From Lichenicola cladoniae (GTDB lineage Bacteria > Pseudomonadota > Alphaproteobacteria > Acetobacterales > Acetobacteraceae): a stretch of 64,000 nt of DNA. The notes under the pieces were generated by a model. That model worked only from the letters and a program-made list of their open reading frames with translations, was not told where the DNA came from and ran no database searches. Location of the stretch: positions 1,863,501 to 1,927,500 of the forward strand of contig NZ_CP053708.1 of assembly GCF_013201075.1 (NCBI RefSeq). The letters run 5' to 3'. Shown one piece after another: positions 55,375 to 62,484 of the stretch. Positions within the stretch are counted from its first letter, which is position 1. Each line of letters starts with the position of its first letter. The translations under genes were made by a program, and so were the position numbers.

Positions 55375-56367
55375 ATGCTGAAGCCAGACCCGTTCCTGCT
55401 CGCCTTGATCGTCACGGTGCTGCTGGCCTCGTTCGTCCCGTGCCACGGGGCGGCAGTGCCGGTGTTCCATGGCCTGACCATCGCGGTCATCGCGCTGATG
55501 TTCTTCATGCAGGGCGCCCGGCTGTCGCGAGCGGCGATCCTGACCGGGCTGGGACACTGGCGGCTGCACCTGGCCATCCTGTGCTGCACCTTCGTGCTGT
55601 TCCCGCTGCTCGGCCTGGCCCTGCACGCCCTGGCGCCCGGATTGCTGACGCCGACGCTCTGGCTCGGCGTGCTGTTCGTGTGCGTGCTGCCCTCCACGGT
55701 CCAGTCGTCGATCGCGTTCACCTCGATCGCGCGGGGCAACATCCCGGCGGCGGTGTGTGCTGCCACCGCGTCGAACCTGCTCGGCATCGTGATCACCCCG
55801 CTCCTGACCGGGCTGGTCCTGGCGGGCGGGATCCACGCCCATGCCCAGGTTTCCGGCCGGGGCGTGCTCGATATCGTCCTGCAACTGCTGCTGCCCTTCG
55901 TGGCCGGCCAGCTGCTGCAGCCGTGGATCGGCGGCTGGGCGCGGCGGAACAAGCGGCTGCTCGGCTTCACCGATCGCGGCTCGATCCTCATCGTCGTCTA
56001 TACGGCGTTCAGCGAGGCGGTGGTGCAGGGGCTCTGGCAGAAGGTGCCGCTGGAACAACTCGGGCTGGTGCTGCTGGTGGATGCGCTGCTGCTCGGGGTG
56101 ATCCTGCTGGTGACGCGATACGGCGCGCGGGCACTGGGCTTCGCGCACGAGGACGAGATCGCGATCGTGTTCTGCGGCTCGAAAAAGACGTTGGCCACCG
56201 GCGTGCCGATGGCCAACGTGCTGTTTCCCAGTGCCATGGTCGGGCAGATCGTGCTGCCGCTGATGATATTCCACCAGCTGCAGCTGTTCGTGTGCGCGGT
56301 ACTGGCCCGCCGCTATGCGCAGCGAGCCATGATCGACGCGGATACGCCGGTCAGAACGCGTAGTTGA
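55375..56367 (+). CDS. Bile acid:sodium symporter-like transporter (BASS/SBF-like, YfeH type)
   Basis: 330 residues with about ten membrane segments: PDPFLLALIVTVLLASFVPC, GLTIAVIALMFFMQGARLS, LHLAILCCTFVLFPLLGLALHAL, LWLGVLFVCVLPSTVQSSIAFTSIARGNIPAAVCAATASNLLGIVITPLLTGLVL and others. The LPSTVQSSIAFTS and FCGSKKTLATGVPMANVLF segments are the signatures of the SLC10-like subgroup (sodium-coordinating region). The ligand is unknown. It is convergent with the TonB receptor; the two stop codons overlap by 17 bases (56351-56367). Confidence 0.9.
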   Translation: MLKPDPFLLALIVTVLLASFVPCHGAAVPVFHGLTIAVIALMFFMQGARLSRAAILTGLGHWRLHLAILCCTFVLFPLLGLALHALAPGLLTPTLWLGVLFVCVLPSTVQSSIAFTSIARGNIPAAVCAATASNLLGIVITPLLTGLVLAGGIHAHAQVSGRGVLDIVLQLLLPFVAGQLLQPWIGGWARRNKRLLGFTDRGSILIVVYTAFSEAVVQGLWQKVPLEQLGLVLLVDALLLGVILLVTRYGARALGFAHEDEIAIVFCGSKKTLATGVPMANVLFPSAMVGQIVLPLMIFHQLQLFVCAVLARRYAQRAMIDADTPVRTRS

Positions 56368-58963
56368 CGCGTCCGTAGTAGAAGCCGCCCGAGAGCGGGA
56401 TCTGCGAGGCGGTCTGGTCGTAGTGGCTGACGTTCGCGTAGGCGGTCGAGGCCGGGGTCTGGCGCGGACGCATGTTGAACAAATTGTTGGCGCCGAGCGT
56501 CGCGTGCCAGTGCTTCTGGATCTGGTAGCCGATCTCGAGATCGGTCAGCCACACCGGCGTGCTCTTGAACTCCAGGAACTGCGTGCCGGAGAAGGCGAGG
56601 TCGGCCGGCGCCTGGTCCTGGTAGCCGAGCAGGTTGGTGGTCTGGCCCCAGCGTGTCTCGCGGACGTTGACGTCCACCTTCCCGATCTTCCAGAACGCAT
56701 TGAGGATGATCTTGCTGCGCGGCGTCGCGGTGGTGACGTAGCCCGCACCCTGGGCGGTCAGGAACGGGTTGCCGAGACCGTCGGTGCCGACATGATGCAG
56801 GCGGGTCCGGTTGAGATCGATGCCGGCGGTCCAGTTGACGGTGCCGTACTGGCGGAAGTCGGAAAAATAGTTGGCGGCGACGTTGAGGCCCTGGGTGCGG
56901 GTGCTGACCCCGTTGGCGAAATAGAACGCCGAGATCTGGTCGACCTGGGCATTGGCCGGAATGGTGGCACCCGTCAGTTCGATCGCATCGAGCGCTGGCT
57001 GGCCCGTCACGCCGCCGGCGCCGACGATCCGGTCGCGGATGTTGATCTGGTAGACGTCGGTGGTGATGCTCAGGTTGGTGATCGGCTCCACCACGAAACC
57101 CGCGCTGACGTTGGTGGAACGTTCCGGCTTGAGCGGCAACGCGCCGATCGAACGGCCGGCGGCGGAGTCCACGGCAAGATCGCCGCTGGCGCTGGTCGGC
57201 CCGACATTGAGCGAGCTGAAATGCTCCTCGGCCAGTGACGGCGCCCGGAAGCCGTTGCTGATCGTGCCGCGGATCGCGAACCTGCGGCTGAAATCGTAGC
57301 GGGTCGAGACCTTGCCGTTCTCGGTATTGCCGGAGTCCGTGTAGTGCTCGAAGCGGCCGGCGAAATCGAGGTCCCAGTGCTTGAGCGGGTGGGTGTCGAG
57401 GTCGATGTAGCCGGCATAGACGTCGCGGTTCCAGCTGCCGGCGTTCTGCGGGCGCAGGCCGGCGAAACCCTGGGTGCCTCCGACTTCCCAGGAGGCGGGA
57501 TTACCGGCGCCGAGCTGGTAGGTATCGAGCCGGTGTTCCGCACCGAATGCCAGGTTGACCGACTTGCCGAACACGGTGAACGGCTGGGTGAAATCGAGGT
57601 TGTTGGTCCATTGCGCGGTGCGCTGGGTCTGTGCCAGGACCTTGGTCGGCGTGAAGCCGGTGCCGAGATCGAAATCCGGATCGCCGGGCTCGGCGCCGGT
57701 CTTGTAGAGGTTGGGGTTGGCGGTGTTCTTGTTGCCGATGTCGGTCTCGTCGTCGCCGTACGTGCTGCTGATGTCCACATGGAAACCGAAGAAGTCCTCG
57801 GCCTTCAGGCCCAGGGTGGTGGCGAAATCGTTCTCGTCGTTGGTCTCCAGCGGCGAGAAGCCGTTCGGATAGAGTTGCGGAAGCACTGTCGGGGTCCGCC
57901 AGTTCTCGTAGCCCTCGGAGTGGCGGTGGGCATAGGTGATCAGGCCGTAGCCCTGCACGCCACCGAACAGGTCGGGCACCAGCGTCTCACCGGCGGCGAT
58001 GCTCAGCGTCTCGCGGGTTTCCTCGGGGACGCCCAGGATTTTATTCGAGTTGAGTGGCGAGCCGAACTTGGCCGCACGATTATCCTCGGTGGGCGCGACG
58101 AAGAAGTCCTTGTGATACATGCCGCCGCCGATATGCAGGTAGCCGTCGCGGCCGAACGACGTGCCGCCATCGGCATCGAGCTGATAGAGCCAGCCGTCGC
58201 CGTTCGCGGCGTTCGCCCCGGTCTGGGCGCTGGCGTTGAAGCCGTGATCGCTCTTCTTGGTAATGATGTTGACCACGCCGGCGATGGCGTCCGATCCGTA
58301 CTGCGCCGCCGCGCCATCGCGCAGGACCTCGATATGGTCGATCGCCGACGACGGGATCATGTTGATGTCCGGCGCCGTCGAGCCTTGCTCGGGTCCTGAA
58401 TCGGCCGCGATGTTCGAGGTCGGATGCCGGCGCTTGCCGTCGAGCAGGATCAGGGTGTCGTTCGGGTTGAGGCCGCGCAGGACGATGTTCGCGGTCAGTG
58501 CTGCGGTATCGGAGCCTTCCGCCTTGATGTTGATCGAGGGGTCGGTCTTGACCAGCGCGCTGGCGAGGTTGGGTTCGCCGGACCGACGCAGGGTGGTCGC
58601 GCTGATGACGTCGATCGGGCTGGTGCTGTCGCGCGCCTTGCGGTTGAGGCTGCGCGTGCCGGTGACGATGACGCTCTCGCCCGCATCCGCGAACGCCGGA
58701 GCTGCGGCGCCCGATCCGGCACTGCCCCGTCCCGCCGGGACTGGCTCGTTCGCTGCAACCAGGATGGGTGGTGCTTCCACTTTGGCCGCGGTTGTGGCGC
58801 TGACATGTCTTGTCTTGTGCGAATGATGACGAACCGGTGCGGGCGTCTTGGTTGTCGCATCACCTGTCTGGGCGATCGCCGGAAGCGTCCCGGCAATGAT
58901 CGCCAACGGACATGCAGTATACAGCAGCACTCTTCGAAAGCCGCTTGCTTGGGTTGTCGTCAT
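56351..58963 (-). CDS. TonB-dependent outer-membrane receptor
   Basis: 870 residues from ATG 58963 with GGAG seven to ten bases upstream; ATG 58975 would add four residues. A signal peptide (VLLYTACPLAIIAGTLPAIAQ) and a histidine/alanine-rich spacer precede the TonB box-like ESVIVTGTR. The plug domain follows (SPIDVISATTLRRSGEPNLASALVKTDPSINIK, NIVLRGLNPNDTLILLDGKRRH, IDHIEVLRDGAAAQYGSDAIAGVVNIITKK). A 22-stranded barrel ends in FYYGRVNYAF with a C-terminal phenylalanine. The group (long receptors with TLILLDGKRRHPT) takes up undefined organic ligands. Divergent from the amine-oxidising module, so its ligand may be an amine or amine-containing compound. Confidence 0.93.
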   Translation of the reverse strand: MTTTQASGFRRVLLYTACPLAIIAGTLPAIAQTGDATTKTPAPVRHHSHKTRHVSATTAAKVEAPPILVAANEPVPAGRGSAGSGAAAPAFADAGESVIVTGTRSLNRKARDSTSPIDVISATTLRRSGEPNLASALVKTDPSINIKAEGSDTAALTANIVLRGLNPNDTLILLDGKRRHPTSNIAADSGPEQGSTAPDINMIPSSAIDHIEVLRDGAAAQYGSDAIAGVVNIITKKSDHGFNASAQTGANAANGDGWLYQLDADGGTSFGRDGYLHIGGGMYHKDFFVAPTEDNRAAKFGSPLNSNKILGVPEETRETLSIAAGETLVPDLFGGVQGYGLITYAHRHSEGYENWRTPTVLPQLYPNGFSPLETNDENDFATTLGLKAEDFFGFHVDISSTYGDDETDIGNKNTANPNLYKTGAEPGDPDFDLGTGFTPTKVLAQTQRTAQWTNNLDFTQPFTVFGKSVNLAFGAEHRLDTYQLGAGNPASWEVGGTQGFAGLRPQNAGSWNRDVYAGYIDLDTHPLKHWDLDFAGRFEHYTDSGNTENGKVSTRYDFSRRFAIRGTISNGFRAPSLAEEHFSSLNVGPTSASGDLAVDSAAGRSIGALPLKPERSTNVSAGFVVEPITNLSITTDVYQINIRDRIVGAGGVTGQPALDAIELTGATIPANAQVDQISAFYFANGVSTRTQGLNVAANYFSDFRQYGTVNWTAGIDLNRTRLHHVGTDGLGNPFLTAQGAGYVTTATPRSKIILNAFWKIGKVDVNVRETRWGQTTNLLGYQDQAPADLAFSGTQFLEFKSTPVWLTDLEIGYQIQKHWHATLGANNLFNMRPRQTPASTAYANVSHYDQTASQIPLSGGFYYGRVNYAF

Positions 58964-59278
58964 CCTGCTCTCCATTCCGCCGTCCGTTGGAAGCCGTGTC
59001 CCGGGATTTCGAAACCTGAACGAACCGATCCGGCGTCGTGCCGGCGCGGAAGTCCGTTCGCTTCCCGTCACGACCAAAAACTAGGCAGGTAGGGGAATCA
59101 AGCCAAAACTGCATATCAAGTATGCAAATAGAGTCAGTGCGGCCTATATGCACCACCAAGAATGTCTATGAAACAGGCAGTTGAGTAGTATATGTGCTGT
59201 TTGACGAATCGTTACTGACTATAATAACGTCAGGTCTATCGAGAGCGCGATCTCGATACCGACCTGGAGCACCGCACC
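58964..59278. other. Divergent promoter region between the TonB receptor and amine-oxidation module
   Basis: 315 bases, AT-richer than its flanks. A perfect TATAAT lies at 59220-59225 on the plus strand, with TTGACG at 59201-59206, but the 13-base spacer is short for sigma70, so the -35 assignment is weak. An imperfect 36-base inverted repeat at 59231-59266 lies downstream of it. On the TonB side (58964-59150) I see no clear promoter elements. Confidence 0.5.
59231..59266 (+). promoter_or_regulatory. 36-base imperfect inverted repeat before the amine oxidase gene
   Basis: Arm CAGGTCTATCGAGA (59231-59244) pairs with TCTCGATA (59251-59258) plus GACCTG (59261-59266); only CC at 59259-59260 is unpaired, and the loop is GCGCGA. 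It sits just after the TATAAT at 59220-59225 and its right arm abuts GGAG, the ribosome-binding site for TTG 59279. It could be a repressor operator or an mRNA hairpin controlling translation. Confidence 0.6.
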
Positions 59279-60877
59279 TTGAATCGAATGCACGCCTTGG
59301 AGCCGACCCGACGGCAACTGCTGATGCGCATCGGAGCGGCGGCCGGCAGTGTCGCCATGTATCAGGCAATGACACAGCTCGGCCACGCAGCCGGAACCGA
59401 CTTCACGGGCTCACCGGTCCTGTCCGGGGCAAAAAAAGGGACTTCCGTGCTGGTGCTTGGTGCCGGCTTGGCCGGCATGCTGGCGGCCTACGAGTTGCGC
59501 AAGGCCGGCTACAGCGTGCGCGTGCTGGAGTACCAGACGCGCTCCGGCGGCCGCAACATCACCCTCCGCGGCGGCGACACCCTGACCGAGCTGGGCGGCG
59601 CGACCCAGAACGTGAAGTTCGCATCCGGCAACTACATCAATCCCGGACCATGGCGTATTCCGTATCACCACCAGGGGCTGCTGCATTACTGCAAGCTGTT
59701 CGGGGTCCAGCTCGAGCCGTTTATCGAGGTCAACCACAACACCTATCTGCACAACACCGAAGCCTTCGGCGGCCAGCCGCAGCGGTACCGCGACGTGATG
59801 TCGGACTTTACCGGCCACACCGCCGAGCTTCTGGCCAAGGCGATCAACCAGGACAAGCTCGATCAGCCGGTCAGCGCCGACGAGAAGCGCGACCTGCTCG
59901 ATGCGATGCGCGGCTGGGGCCTCCTGGACAAGGACTACGCCTACAAGACCAGCGACTTCGTGTCCCTGCGGCGCGGCAACTCGAAGCCGGCCGGCGGCGG
60001 TCCGGACGGAGCACCGGTCCCGTCGACCGTGATGGGTCGCAGCGAGATCATGAAGTCCGGCCTGTGGCAGTGGCTGTCGTTCAACATGAGCTACGAGATG
60101 CAGACGACGATGTTCCAGCCGGTCGGCGGCATGGACATGATCGGCAAGGGTTTCGCCAAGCAGGTCAACGATCTCGTCACCCACAACATCAAGGTCACCA
60201 AGATCGCGCAGGATGCGAACGGTGTCACCGTGAGCTTCCTGGACAACGGCAAGGGCGGCGCCGCGGGCGAGGCGAAGGCCGATTGGTGCGTCTGCACGAT
60301 CCCGCTGCCGATCCTGGCGGAAATCGAGGTGCAGGCGGGCGCGCCGATGAAGGCGGCGATCAAGGCGGTGCCCTATGCCTCCTCGGTCAAGGTCGGTCTC
60401 GAATTCAATCGGCGGTTCTGGGAGCAGGACGAGCAGATCTATGGCGGCATCAGCTTCACCGACCAGCCGATCAGCCAGATCTCGTATCCGAGCACGAACT
60501 ACTTCTCGAATGACAAGGGCGTCCTGCTCGGCGGATACATGTTCGGGCCCGCCGCCTATTCGTTCGCCGGCATGACACCGGAGGAGCGGATCGAGGCGGC
60601 GCTCAAGCAGGGCAGTCTCATCCACAAGCAATACCGGAAGGAGTTCAGCAACGGCGTCGCCGTCGCCTGGAGCCGGATGCCATGGACGCTCGGCTGCTGC
60701 TCGACCTGGAGCGAGGAAAGCCGCAAGGCGCACTACAAGCCGCTGACCGAAATCGATGGCCGCCTGGTTATCGCCGGCGAGCACGCCTCCTACGTCGGAT
60801 GCTGGCAGGAGGGCGCCATCCTGTCGTCGGTCAGCGCCATTACCCGTCTCCACCAGCGCGCGATCGGAACCGCATGA
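59279..60877 (+). CDS. Tat-exported flavin-dependent amine oxidase/dehydrogenase
   Basis: 532 residues from TTG 59279 (GGAG 9-12 bases upstream); ATG 59288 is an alternative. The N-terminus carries a twin-arginine signal (PTRRQLLMRIGAAAG, arginines 11-12). FAD-binding GxGxxG is VLGAGLAGMLAAYEL (about residues 59-73), with the second FAD motif TRSGGR (87-92), both typical of the flavin monoamine oxidase family. WCVCTIPLPILAEIE and the C-terminal IAGEHASYVGCWQEGAILSS (FAD-contact motif with W and G) follow. It oxidises an amine to the imine in the periplasm. The coupled cytochrome c suggests electrons go to the cytochrome rather than to oxygen. ATGA overlap with that gene. Confidence 0.9.
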   Translation: MNRMHALEPTRRQLLMRIGAAAGSVAMYQAMTQLGHAAGTDFTGSPVLSGAKKGTSVLVLGAGLAGMLAAYELRKAGYSVRVLEYQTRSGGRNITLRGGDTLTELGGATQNVKFASGNYINPGPWRIPYHHQGLLHYCKLFGVQLEPFIEVNHNTYLHNTEAFGGQPQRYRDVMSDFTGHTAELLAKAINQDKLDQPVSADEKRDLLDAMRGWGLLDKDYAYKTSDFVSLRRGNSKPAGGGPDGAPVPSTVMGRSEIMKSGLWQWLSFNMSYEMQTTMFQPVGGMDMIGKGFAKQVNDLVTHNIKVTKIAQDANGVTVSFLDNGKGGAAGEAKADWCVCTIPLPILAEIEVQAGAPMKAAIKAVPYASSVKVGLEFNRRFWEQDEQIYGGISFTDQPISQISYPSTNYFSNDKGVLLGGYMFGPAAYSFAGMTPEERIEAALKQGSLIHKQYRKEFSNGVAVAWSRMPWTLGCCSTWSEESRKAHYKPLTEIDGRLVIAGEHASYVGCWQEGAILSSVSAITRLHQRAIGTA

Positions 60878-61320
60878 TGCGCCCGGCTTTTTCCAGCACG
60901 ACCTTCTCAACCATCGCCGCGACCCTGGCGATCGCGGCGCTGTTTTCGCTTCCGTCCAGTCAGGCGCTGGCGGATGCGGCATCCAACGTCGCCGGCAAGT
61001 CGACCACCAGCACCGACGGCGCGGTGATCTTCCAGCAGGTGTGCCAGGGCTGCCACATGGCCAACGCCAAGGGCGCGGTCGGTGCGGGTTATATCCCGGC
61101 ACTCGCCGGCAACCCGAAGCTCAAGAGCGCCGGTTATCCGATCTATGTCGTGCTGAACGGCTACGGCGGCATGCCCTGGCTCGGAACGATGCTGAACGAC
61201 GCCCAGGTGGCCTCGGTGGTGAACTACGTGCGCAGCAATTTCGGCAACAACTACACCGACAAGTCCAAGCCGGAAGACGTCGCCGCCGTGCGCGGCGCGG
61301 CCCCCACGATGGAGAAATGA
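60874..61320 (+). CDS. Periplasmic c-type cytochrome
   Basis: 148 residues from ATG 60874, overlapping the stop of the flavoenzyme gene (ATGA). A signal peptide (IAATLAIAALFSLPSSQALA) precedes a single class I cytochrome c domain: FQQVCQGCHMANAKG (heme-binding CxxCH, cysteines 57 and 60, histidine 61) and a later methionine region GGMPWLGTMLNDAQVASVVNYV containing the distal Met ligand. It probably takes electrons from the amine-oxidising flavoenzyme and passes them to a terminal oxidase. It overlaps the RidA gene start by four bases. Confidence 0.93.
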   Translation: MMRPAFSSTTFSTIAATLAIAALFSLPSSQALADAASNVAGKSTTSTDGAVIFQQVCQGCHMANAKGAVGAGYIPALAGNPKLKSAGYPIYVVLNGYGGMPWLGTMLNDAQVASVVNYVRSNFGNNYTDKSKPEDVAAVRGAAPTMEK

Positions 61321-61826
61321 GCGTGATGACCAGGATGATTCCGGCTGCCGTGCTGTCCGCGATGCTGGCCGCGACGGCGTTGTATGGCGCACCGGCCTCG
61401 GCGGCGGACCTGATCAGGCACGCCACCGGCAAGTTCCCGATCGCCTCGGCGATCGAAGTTCCGCCAGGCTACACCACGATCTATCTGTCCGGCATGGGCG
61501 CCGAAATATCGGACAAGAACGCCAAGCCGATGACGATGGCGGCGTATGGCGATACCGAAACCCAGGTCAAGAGCGCGCTCGGCAAGATCCAGGCATCGCT
61601 TGCCGAGCTGCACCTGACCTTCGCCGACGTGGTGCAGATGCATATCTACATGGTGGCGGATCCGAAGCTCGGGAAGCTCGACTTCGCCGGCATGATGAAG
61701 TCGTACACCCAGTTCTTCGGCACCACGGCTCAGCCGAACCTGCCGACCCGGTCCGCCTTCCAGGTCGCGGCCCTGGCCAATCCCGGCTGGCTGGTCGAGA
61801 TCGAGGTGACCGCCGTCAGGAAGTAG
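61317..61826 (+). CDS. Exported RidA/YjgF-family enamine/imine deaminase
   Basis: 169 residues from ATG 61317 (ATGA overlap with the cytochrome). An unusual feature is a signal peptide (MIPAAVLSAMLAATALYGAPASA), so this RidA works in the periplasm. The RidA core shows GYTTIYLSGMGAE, TETQVKSALGKIQASLAELHLTFADVVQMHIYMVAD and NLPTRSAFQVAALANPGWLVEIEVTAV, with the conserved arginine that holds the substrate carboxylate in the PTRSAFQV motif. RidA hydrolyses imines/enamines to ketone and ammonia. It therefore probably clears the product of the upstream amine oxidase. Its end overlaps the convergent DsbA-like gene by 11 bases. Confidence 0.92.
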   Translation: MSVMTRMIPAAVLSAMLAATALYGAPASAADLIRHATGKFPIASAIEVPPGYTTIYLSGMGAEISDKNAKPMTMAAYGDTETQVKSALGKIQASLAELHLTFADVVQMHIYMVADPKLGKLDFAGMMKSYTQFFGTTAQPNLPTRSAFQVAALANPGWLVEIEVTAVRK

Positions 61827-62484
61827 CGACCTCGAGCGTCGCCACGTCCAGGAGGCGCAGGAAAACCTCCGTCTCCTGGGCGCCCGACACGGCAAGGCGG
61901 CCGGCGAACACGAAGCACGGCACCCCGCTGATGCCGCGACGGTGCGCGCGAAGGTTCTCCGTATGGACGATGTCCGCATTCTCGCGGGAGCGCAGGAACG
62001 CGAAGGCCGCGCTCTCGTCCAGGCCCGCGGCCGCGGCGATCCCGGCCAGCACGTCGAGATCGCCGATATCCAGTCCCTGTGTGAACTGCGCGGCGAACAA
62101 CGCTTCCACCAGCGCGTCGGCCGGGCCGAATCTCGCCGCCCAGCCGGCCAGGCGATGCGCATCGACGCTCGACGGGATATGCGTCATGCGATCGAACCGA
62201 AACGCGACGCCGTCCTGCAGGCCGAGTTCGGTGACCGACGCATAGAGGCGGCGGCCCCGTTCCTCGCCGCCATACTTGCGTTGCACGTAGTCGGGCCGGC
62301 TGAGCCCTTCGCGTGGAATATCGGGGTTGAGCAGGAACGGCCGCCAGTTGATCTCGAACCGGTCGTCCGGACGCAGCGCGAGGGCACGAAGCAGACGGCG
62401 CACGCCCAGGTAGCACCACGGGCACACGAAGTCGTGTACGACTTCGATGGCGAGGCGGGTATGGATCGGCGTCAGCGCATTCAC
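61816..62484 (-). CDS. DsbA/FrnE-like thioredoxin-fold oxidoreductase
   Basis: 222 residues. The active site CPWC is at about residues 21-24 in VVHDFVCPWCYLGVRRLL, and the conserved cis-proline region is GISGVPCFVFAGRLAVSGAQ (about 181-200). The helical insert contains RFDRMTHIPSSVDAHRLAGWAARFG, typical of the FrnE/2-hydroxychromene isomerase-like branch. No signal peptide, so it is probably cytosolic. It could be a disulfide isomerase-like or glutathione-S-transferase-like enzyme. Convergent with the RidA gene. Confidence 0.9.
   Translation of the reverse strand: MNALTPIHTRLAIEVVHDFVCPWCYLGVRRLLRALALRPDDRFEINWRPFLLNPDIPREGLSRPDYVQRKYGGEERGRRLYASVTELGLQDGVAFRFDRMTHIPSSVDAHRLAGWAARFGPADALVEALFAAQFTQGLDIGDLDVLAGIAAAAGLDESAAFAFLRSRENADIVHTENLRAHRRGISGVPCFVFAGRLAVSGAQETEVFLRLLDVATLEVATS

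Follow-up and report, generated by a model that had tools for sequence, protein, structure and literature searches.

A lao-cccA-ridA operon in Lichenicola cladoniae with a predicted role in L-amino acid oxidation outside the cytoplasm

Three consecutive genes of Lichenicola cladoniae encode a flavoenzyme, a c-type cytochrome and a Rid-family protein, each with a putative export signal. The locus, which lies in a 64,000-nucleotide stretch of the genome (the window), raises the question of what such a set of proteins would oxidize outside the cytoplasm and where the electrons would go. We analyzed the genes, their relatives and their genomic surroundings to propose an answer.

Anatomy, conservation and published counterpart of the operon

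The first gene, lao (59279..60877, + strand), encodes a putative Tat-exported flavin L-amino acid oxidase/dehydrogenase of 532 aa if translated from a TTG start, with an in-frame ATG at 59288 as an alternative, and its product matches the Pfam family Amino_oxidase (PF01593, E 7e-52). It is followed on the same strand by cccA (60874..61320, 148 aa), encoding a monohaem c-type cytochrome with a Sec-type signal peptide (Cytochrome_CBB3 / Cytochrom_C, PF13442/PF00034, E 1e-10 / 3e-8, respectively), and by ridA (61317..61826, 169 aa), encoding a Rid3-like imine/enamine hydrolase with an N-terminal signal peptide (Ribonuc_L-PSP (Rid), PF01042, E 4e-16). The lao and cccA genes overlap by ATGA at 60874-60877, as do cccA and ridA at 61317-61320; a preliminary description of this DNA had reported three coupled genes at 59279-61826, all overlapping by ATGA, and their coordinates, order, strand and overlaps proved exact. 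Scans for sigma-70 promoters and terminators gave about as much as shuffled sequence would. The 3′ end of ridA overlaps by 11 bases, tail to tail, that of a DsbA-family gene on the opposite strand (61816-62484, -), a homologue of which is kept downstream at loci L004, L005, L007 and L008.

Export signals were predicted from motifs, a hydrophobicity scan and AxA sites. The N-terminus of the lao protein, EPTRRQLLMRIGAAAG, carries a Tat motif that is conserved in its relatives, and the TRRQLL element is present with either the TTG or the ATG start. The cytochrome and Rid proteins start with conventional hydrophobic signal sequences that terminate in AxA. In the cytochrome, the haem motif CQGCH occupies residues 57-61 and M100 is a candidate Met ligand; the haem-binding Cys, Cys and His and M100 are invariant in 74/74 relatives. 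The best PDB matches of the cccA product are domains of the cytochrome subunits of dehydrogenases, e.g. fructose dehydrogenase.

Some loci end at contig ends, so the linkage counts are lower bounds: a cytochrome c gene adjoins lao at 76/79 loci of the named genomes and at 17/17 loci of a phylum-wide sample (93/96 altogether), and a Rid gene lies beside lao at 57/79 and 11/17 loci, respectively (68/96). The linkage of both genes to lao is not due to chance. In the relatives, lao, cccA and ridA typically overlap or lie only a few bases apart, and gene order and strand are conserved. The 28/96 loci where no Rid gene was seen beside lao indicate that Rid is not essential to the lao-cytochrome pair. 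The enzyme itself has a patchy occurrence: a search at E<=1e-120 recovered it from 22 of the 150 family genomes sampled and from 17 of the 397 in the phylum-wide sample. Judging from these searches, the module is common in the Acetobacteraceae and scattered through the Proteobacteria. The earlier view of an exported module of three components, in which a cytochrome c and an exported imine hydrolase accompany the flavoenzyme, is supported.

The module is not new, being of the same kind as the lao-cccA-ridA operon of Gluconacetobacter diazotrophicus PAL5 (GDI2456-GDI2454) published in 2016 (PMC5053998). We used the six RT-qPCR primers of that study to infer orthology. They map in order, at near-published spacing and with 0-6 mismatches each, to the Gluconacetobacter/Nguyenibacter loci within L012-L021 (L013, from Acetobacter, was left out of this set), and do not fit the second Gluconacetobacter paralogue (L066-L071). 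The primer-matching orthologues are 70-72% identical to the lao enzyme of Lichenicola cladoniae, whose operon is, by this indirect, primer-based comparison, orthologous to GDI2456-GDI2454.

In G. diazotrophicus, IAA was gone and most tryptophan remained unused upon Tn5 insertion in lao, in two separate cases (PMC5053998). The insertions also lowered the transcripts of all three genes, lao, cccA and ridA (PMC5053998), and the phenotype thus does not separate the roles of cccA and ridA. Mutants of cytochrome c maturation (ccm) make 5% of wild-type IAA, according to earlier work as cited in the same paper. Both lao and cytochrome c maturation are accordingly needed for the conversion of tryptophan to IPyA/IAA in the orthologous operon, and the authors already proposed Tat export, electron transfer to cytochrome c and clean-up by RidA (PMC5053998). 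For Lichenicola cladoniae, the present analysis establishes the anatomy of the operon, the family placement of its products, the substrate-site residues, the linkage and the export signals.

The flavoenzyme and its probable substrates

The preliminary description had taken the first gene product for a flavin amine oxidase, compared it with NicA2-type enzymes and proposed an amine-to-ketone system. The Tat-type flavoenzyme was confirmed, with the FAD-binding dinucleotide motif GAGLAG at residues 61-66, but sequence, fold and active site all pointed to the L-amino acid oxidases. The best PDB match of the lao protein was 2jae, the L-amino acid oxidase (LAAO) of R. opacus (E 9e-85), and the second best an ancestral tetrapod LAAO obtained by reconstruction (E 9e-39). 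The AlphaFold model, with a mean pLDDT of 76.9 and low values for residues 1-38 and for several loops around the presumed active site, aligned with 2jae over 466 residues (Z 44.2, rmsd 2.8), with weaker fold matches to snake LAAO (Z 32.7) and to MAO and LSD1 (Z about 28). NicA2 was absent among the PDB and fold matches listed for the protein.

The substrate site of the R. opacus enzyme (RoLAAO) includes Arg84, Tyr371 and Trp467 (83, 370 and 466 as counted in the chain), the Arg and Tyr binding the carboxylate. The corresponding residues of the lao protein are R126, kept in 80/80 aligned homologous proteins, Y420, kept in 79/80, and W509, one of the substrate-site Trp residues, present in all 80. 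Since the Arg/Tyr pair holds a carboxylate, alpha-amino acids rather than simple amines would be expected as substrates and, with an LAAO as the closest relative, a reaction turning L-amino acids into 2-oxo acids is more probable than one turning an amine into a ketone. These data place the lao enzyme, at the level of sequence and predicted structure, with the R. opacus-type L-amino acid oxidases and probably not with the NicA2-type amine oxidases. The gene most likely encodes an exported flavoenzyme oxidizing L-amino acids outside the cytoplasm, and we infer that L-amino acids are its substrates in Lichenicola cladoniae.

An enzyme that, like NicA2, oxidizes a non-amino-acid amine in the periplasm, whether as an oxidase or a dehydrogenase, would also account for the Tat signal and the adjacent cytochrome c gene, which are features of NicA2/CycN and related FAOs (PMC12224317). 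However, the nearest relatives of the lao enzyme all act on L-amino acids, the carboxylate-binding Arg and Tyr are conserved, and the orthologous operon acts on tryptophan (PMC5053998). We consider an amine of this sort a highly improbable substrate, and did not favour it on the grounds of the family placement and the active-site residues. The exported module of the earlier proposal is retained, but its chemistry most likely converts an L-amino acid into the 2-oxo acid.

Elsewhere in the same genome (L002, G000:C1:282280-283800) lies the gene of another LAAO paralogue with a Tat signal, which is 35-36% identical. No cytochrome c gene was seen within the stretch read around it; amino-acid ABC transporter genes adjoin, and a relative of the TonB receptor described below lies about 4 kb away.

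A gene for a TonB-dependent outer-membrane receptor (56351..59077, - strand; PF00593/PF07715) lies divergent from lao, and the preliminary description had noted it as a neighbour. The proximity of the two genes turned out to be conserved, with a homologue directly upstream of lao in 24/80 loci (11 divergent and 13 co-directional). As relatives of the receptor at E<=1e-60 number only 1-6 per genome in the seven genomes checked, the association is more than chance would give, and the receptor is probably associated with the lao operon. The nearest named families are siderophore receptors, with scores far below their cut-offs. Import of the lao substrate by the receptor, suggested in the preliminary description, is possible. 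The receptor gene is adjoined by a gene for an SBF-like transporter (55375-56367, +), and this pair is kept in L004, L007 and L008, which are close relatives. The intergenic control region between the receptor gene and lao (59078..59278) contains a 22-bp near-palindrome just 5′ of lao (59237-59258, TATCGAGAGCGCGATCTCGATA), which was rejected as an operator because even the closest relatives do not share it.

Electron acceptor and respiratory context

The nearest characterized relative of the lao enzyme, R. opacus LAAO, is an oxygen-using oxidase, as is snake LAAO, also among its nearest solved relatives. A Lys near flavin N5 helps oxidases react with O2, and this residue is kept in the lao protein (K371 in the alignment). 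Both points would fit a true periplasmic oxidase, passing electrons to O2 and making H2O2, with the cytochrome c in some other role, such as electron supply to a cytochrome c peroxidase by which the H2O2 is removed. NicA2, however, also keeps the flavin-site Lys yet avoids O2 (PMC12224317), and K371 does not therefore decide between oxidase and dehydrogenase. Most FAOs that combine a Tat signal with a neighbouring cytochrome c gene are dehydrogenases using cytochrome c (PMC12224317), and the lao protein has, by motif and hydrophobicity, both the signal and an adjacent gene for an exported cytochrome c; by this sign, taken from a survey that began with NicA2 BLAST hits, it should be cytochrome c-using. 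Tight, overlapping linkage of one cytochrome c gene, found here at 93/96 loci, marked the true dehydrogenases in that survey and, in the G. diazotrophicus work cited in PMC5053998, ccm mutants lose 95% of IAA. None of the papers cited here shows an enzyme of this LAAO clade reducing its cytochrome c. Taken together, the evidence suggests that cytochrome c, rather than O2, is the acceptor of the lao enzyme, and we think it unlikely that the enzyme is a true oxidase.

The best explanation, to which we assign a probability of roughly three in four, is that the operon encodes a periplasmic L-amino acid dehydrogenase system, comprising a Tat-exported FAD enzyme, a cytochrome c acceptor and an exported Rid3 protein. 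The flavoenzyme would take a hydride from an L-amino acid, the likeliest physiological substrates being aromatic ones such as tryptophan, to leave a 2-imino acid. The small exported cytochrome c would then take electrons from the flavin one at a time, re-oxidizing it in two steps, and hand them on. The Rid3 protein would accelerate the reaction of the imino acid with water, which releases ammonia and the 2-oxo acid. In the indole case, tryptophan would yield indole-3-pyruvate, the entry to IAA.

We searched for respiratory genes by protein family, with cut-offs. The genome of Lichenicola cladoniae encodes bc1 cytochrome b, CcmF and a CoxB with the CuA motif CSEYCGTDH, beside a CtaD that scores above cut-off. 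A route to O2 thus exists in this genome, and electrons from the lao enzyme could use the available bc1 complex and CuA-type cytochrome c oxidase. The respiratory electron transfer put forward in the preliminary description is accordingly plausible here, given bc1 and an oxidase of the aa3 type, but should not be taken for granted in relatives lacking any cytochrome c oxidase. A CuA-type CoxB was found in 13/22 family genomes with lao, and neither CuA-type CoxB nor the cbb3-type CcoN exceeded the cut-off in the other 9/22 (G051, G001, G008, G028, G034, G044, G103, G117 and G144), the first of which belongs to the same genus as Lichenicola cladoniae. All nine of these oxidase-less carriers have lao with an adjacent cytochrome c gene, and seven also have Rid.

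A CCP/MauG family gene occurs in 8/9 of the oxidase-less carriers (all but G051), which would suit an oxidase paired with a peroxidase; against this pairing, the family search gave no CCP/MauG match in the genome of Lichenicola cladoniae itself. It has already been noted that the acetous respiratory chain may be disrupted at the level of cytochrome c, and that re-oxidation of cytochrome c may be the work of a peroxidase (PMC10715153). The lao operon provides a concrete electron source for this cytochrome c pool. As far as these genome searches go, the absence of a cytochrome c oxidase from nine carriers is a point that the papers cited here on such operons do not cover.

The exported Rid protein and comparison with known systems

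The best PDB matches of the ridA product were PSPTO3006 (9bka, E 4e-30) and PFL1385 (9bkc, E 1e-26). Both have been assigned to Rid3, a group shown to act on the imino acids that an LAAO produces, hydrolysing them (PMC5619798). In this subfamily, the catalytic Arg (Arg105 of RidA) and a Glu are kept, and the Tyr is replaced by Ile (PMC4433059). The equivalent residues of the ridA protein, R145, E161/E163 and I42 (at the Tyr17 position), were found in 56/56 relatives, and Rid3 is, by sequence, the subfamily nearest to the protein.

The Rid proteins of 54/56 relatives carry a strongly hydrophobic segment at the N-terminus, the remaining two falling just under the cut. At four loci from distant Proteobacteria (L098, L101, L102 and L103), the N-terminus of the Rid protein encoded beside lao ends instead in an apparent lipobox (LTGC, VTGC or IGAC). 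The use of a second type of export signal suggests that selection acts on the export of Rid itself. A conserved predicted export signal on Rid, of the lipoprotein type in some relatives, goes beyond what PMC5053998, PMC12224317 or PMC5619798 report.

These observations can be extended, tentatively and with rather less than even confidence, to a broader proposal: that in oxidase-less acetic acid bacteria the electrons of amino acids enter periplasmic cytochrome c, so that a sink yet to be described would exist (H2O2 via a peroxidase, or return to quinone), and that Rid acts outside the cytoplasm as an exported, sometimes lipid-anchored, imine hydrolase. More generally, our analysis links an operon that had not been characterized with a gene cluster already published for auxin formation, and it predicts that L-amino acid dehydrogenases using cytochrome c exist beyond the NicA2-like enzymes for which measurements have been made. 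It also supplies a concrete case in which to ask how cytochrome c is re-oxidized in oxidase-less acetic acid bacteria and whether Rid acts in the periplasm.

Among known systems, the G. diazotrophicus operon matches in its three genes and their order and has a lao protein of 533 aa (vs. 532 aa) with a Tat signal; it belongs to another genus, and in Lichenicola cladoniae lao has a divergently transcribed TonB receptor gene as its neighbour. R. opacus LAAO (2jae, 2jb1) shares the fold over 466 residues, 34-35% identity and the Arg, Tyr and one Trp of the substrate site, but the Lichenicola cladoniae operon has the gene of an exported cytochrome c attached. NicA2-CycN, Pnao and other Tat-exported FAO dehydrogenases resemble it in pairing an exported FAD enzyme with an adjacent gene for an exported cytochrome c (PMC12224317), and differ in substrate class, the Lichenicola cladoniae enzyme having an LAAO-type active site; the survey that describes them was built from NicA2 BLAST hits and mentions RidA nowhere in its text (PMC12224317). 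The Rid3 proteins PSPTO_3006 and PFL_1385 likewise keep the catalytic Arg and have Ile for Tyr, and PFL1385 has a hydrophobic N-terminal stretch, whereas the Lichenicola cladoniae Rid shares an operon with an exported LAAO and a cytochrome c. Finally, the periplasmic pair LAO1/LAO2 (RidA) of Chlamydomonas combines an extracytoplasmic LAAO with a Rid partner and leads from tryptophan to IPyA/IAA (PMC10805672), but this system is eukaryotic, produces H2O2 and is encoded in a cluster without a cytochrome c gene (PMC10805672).
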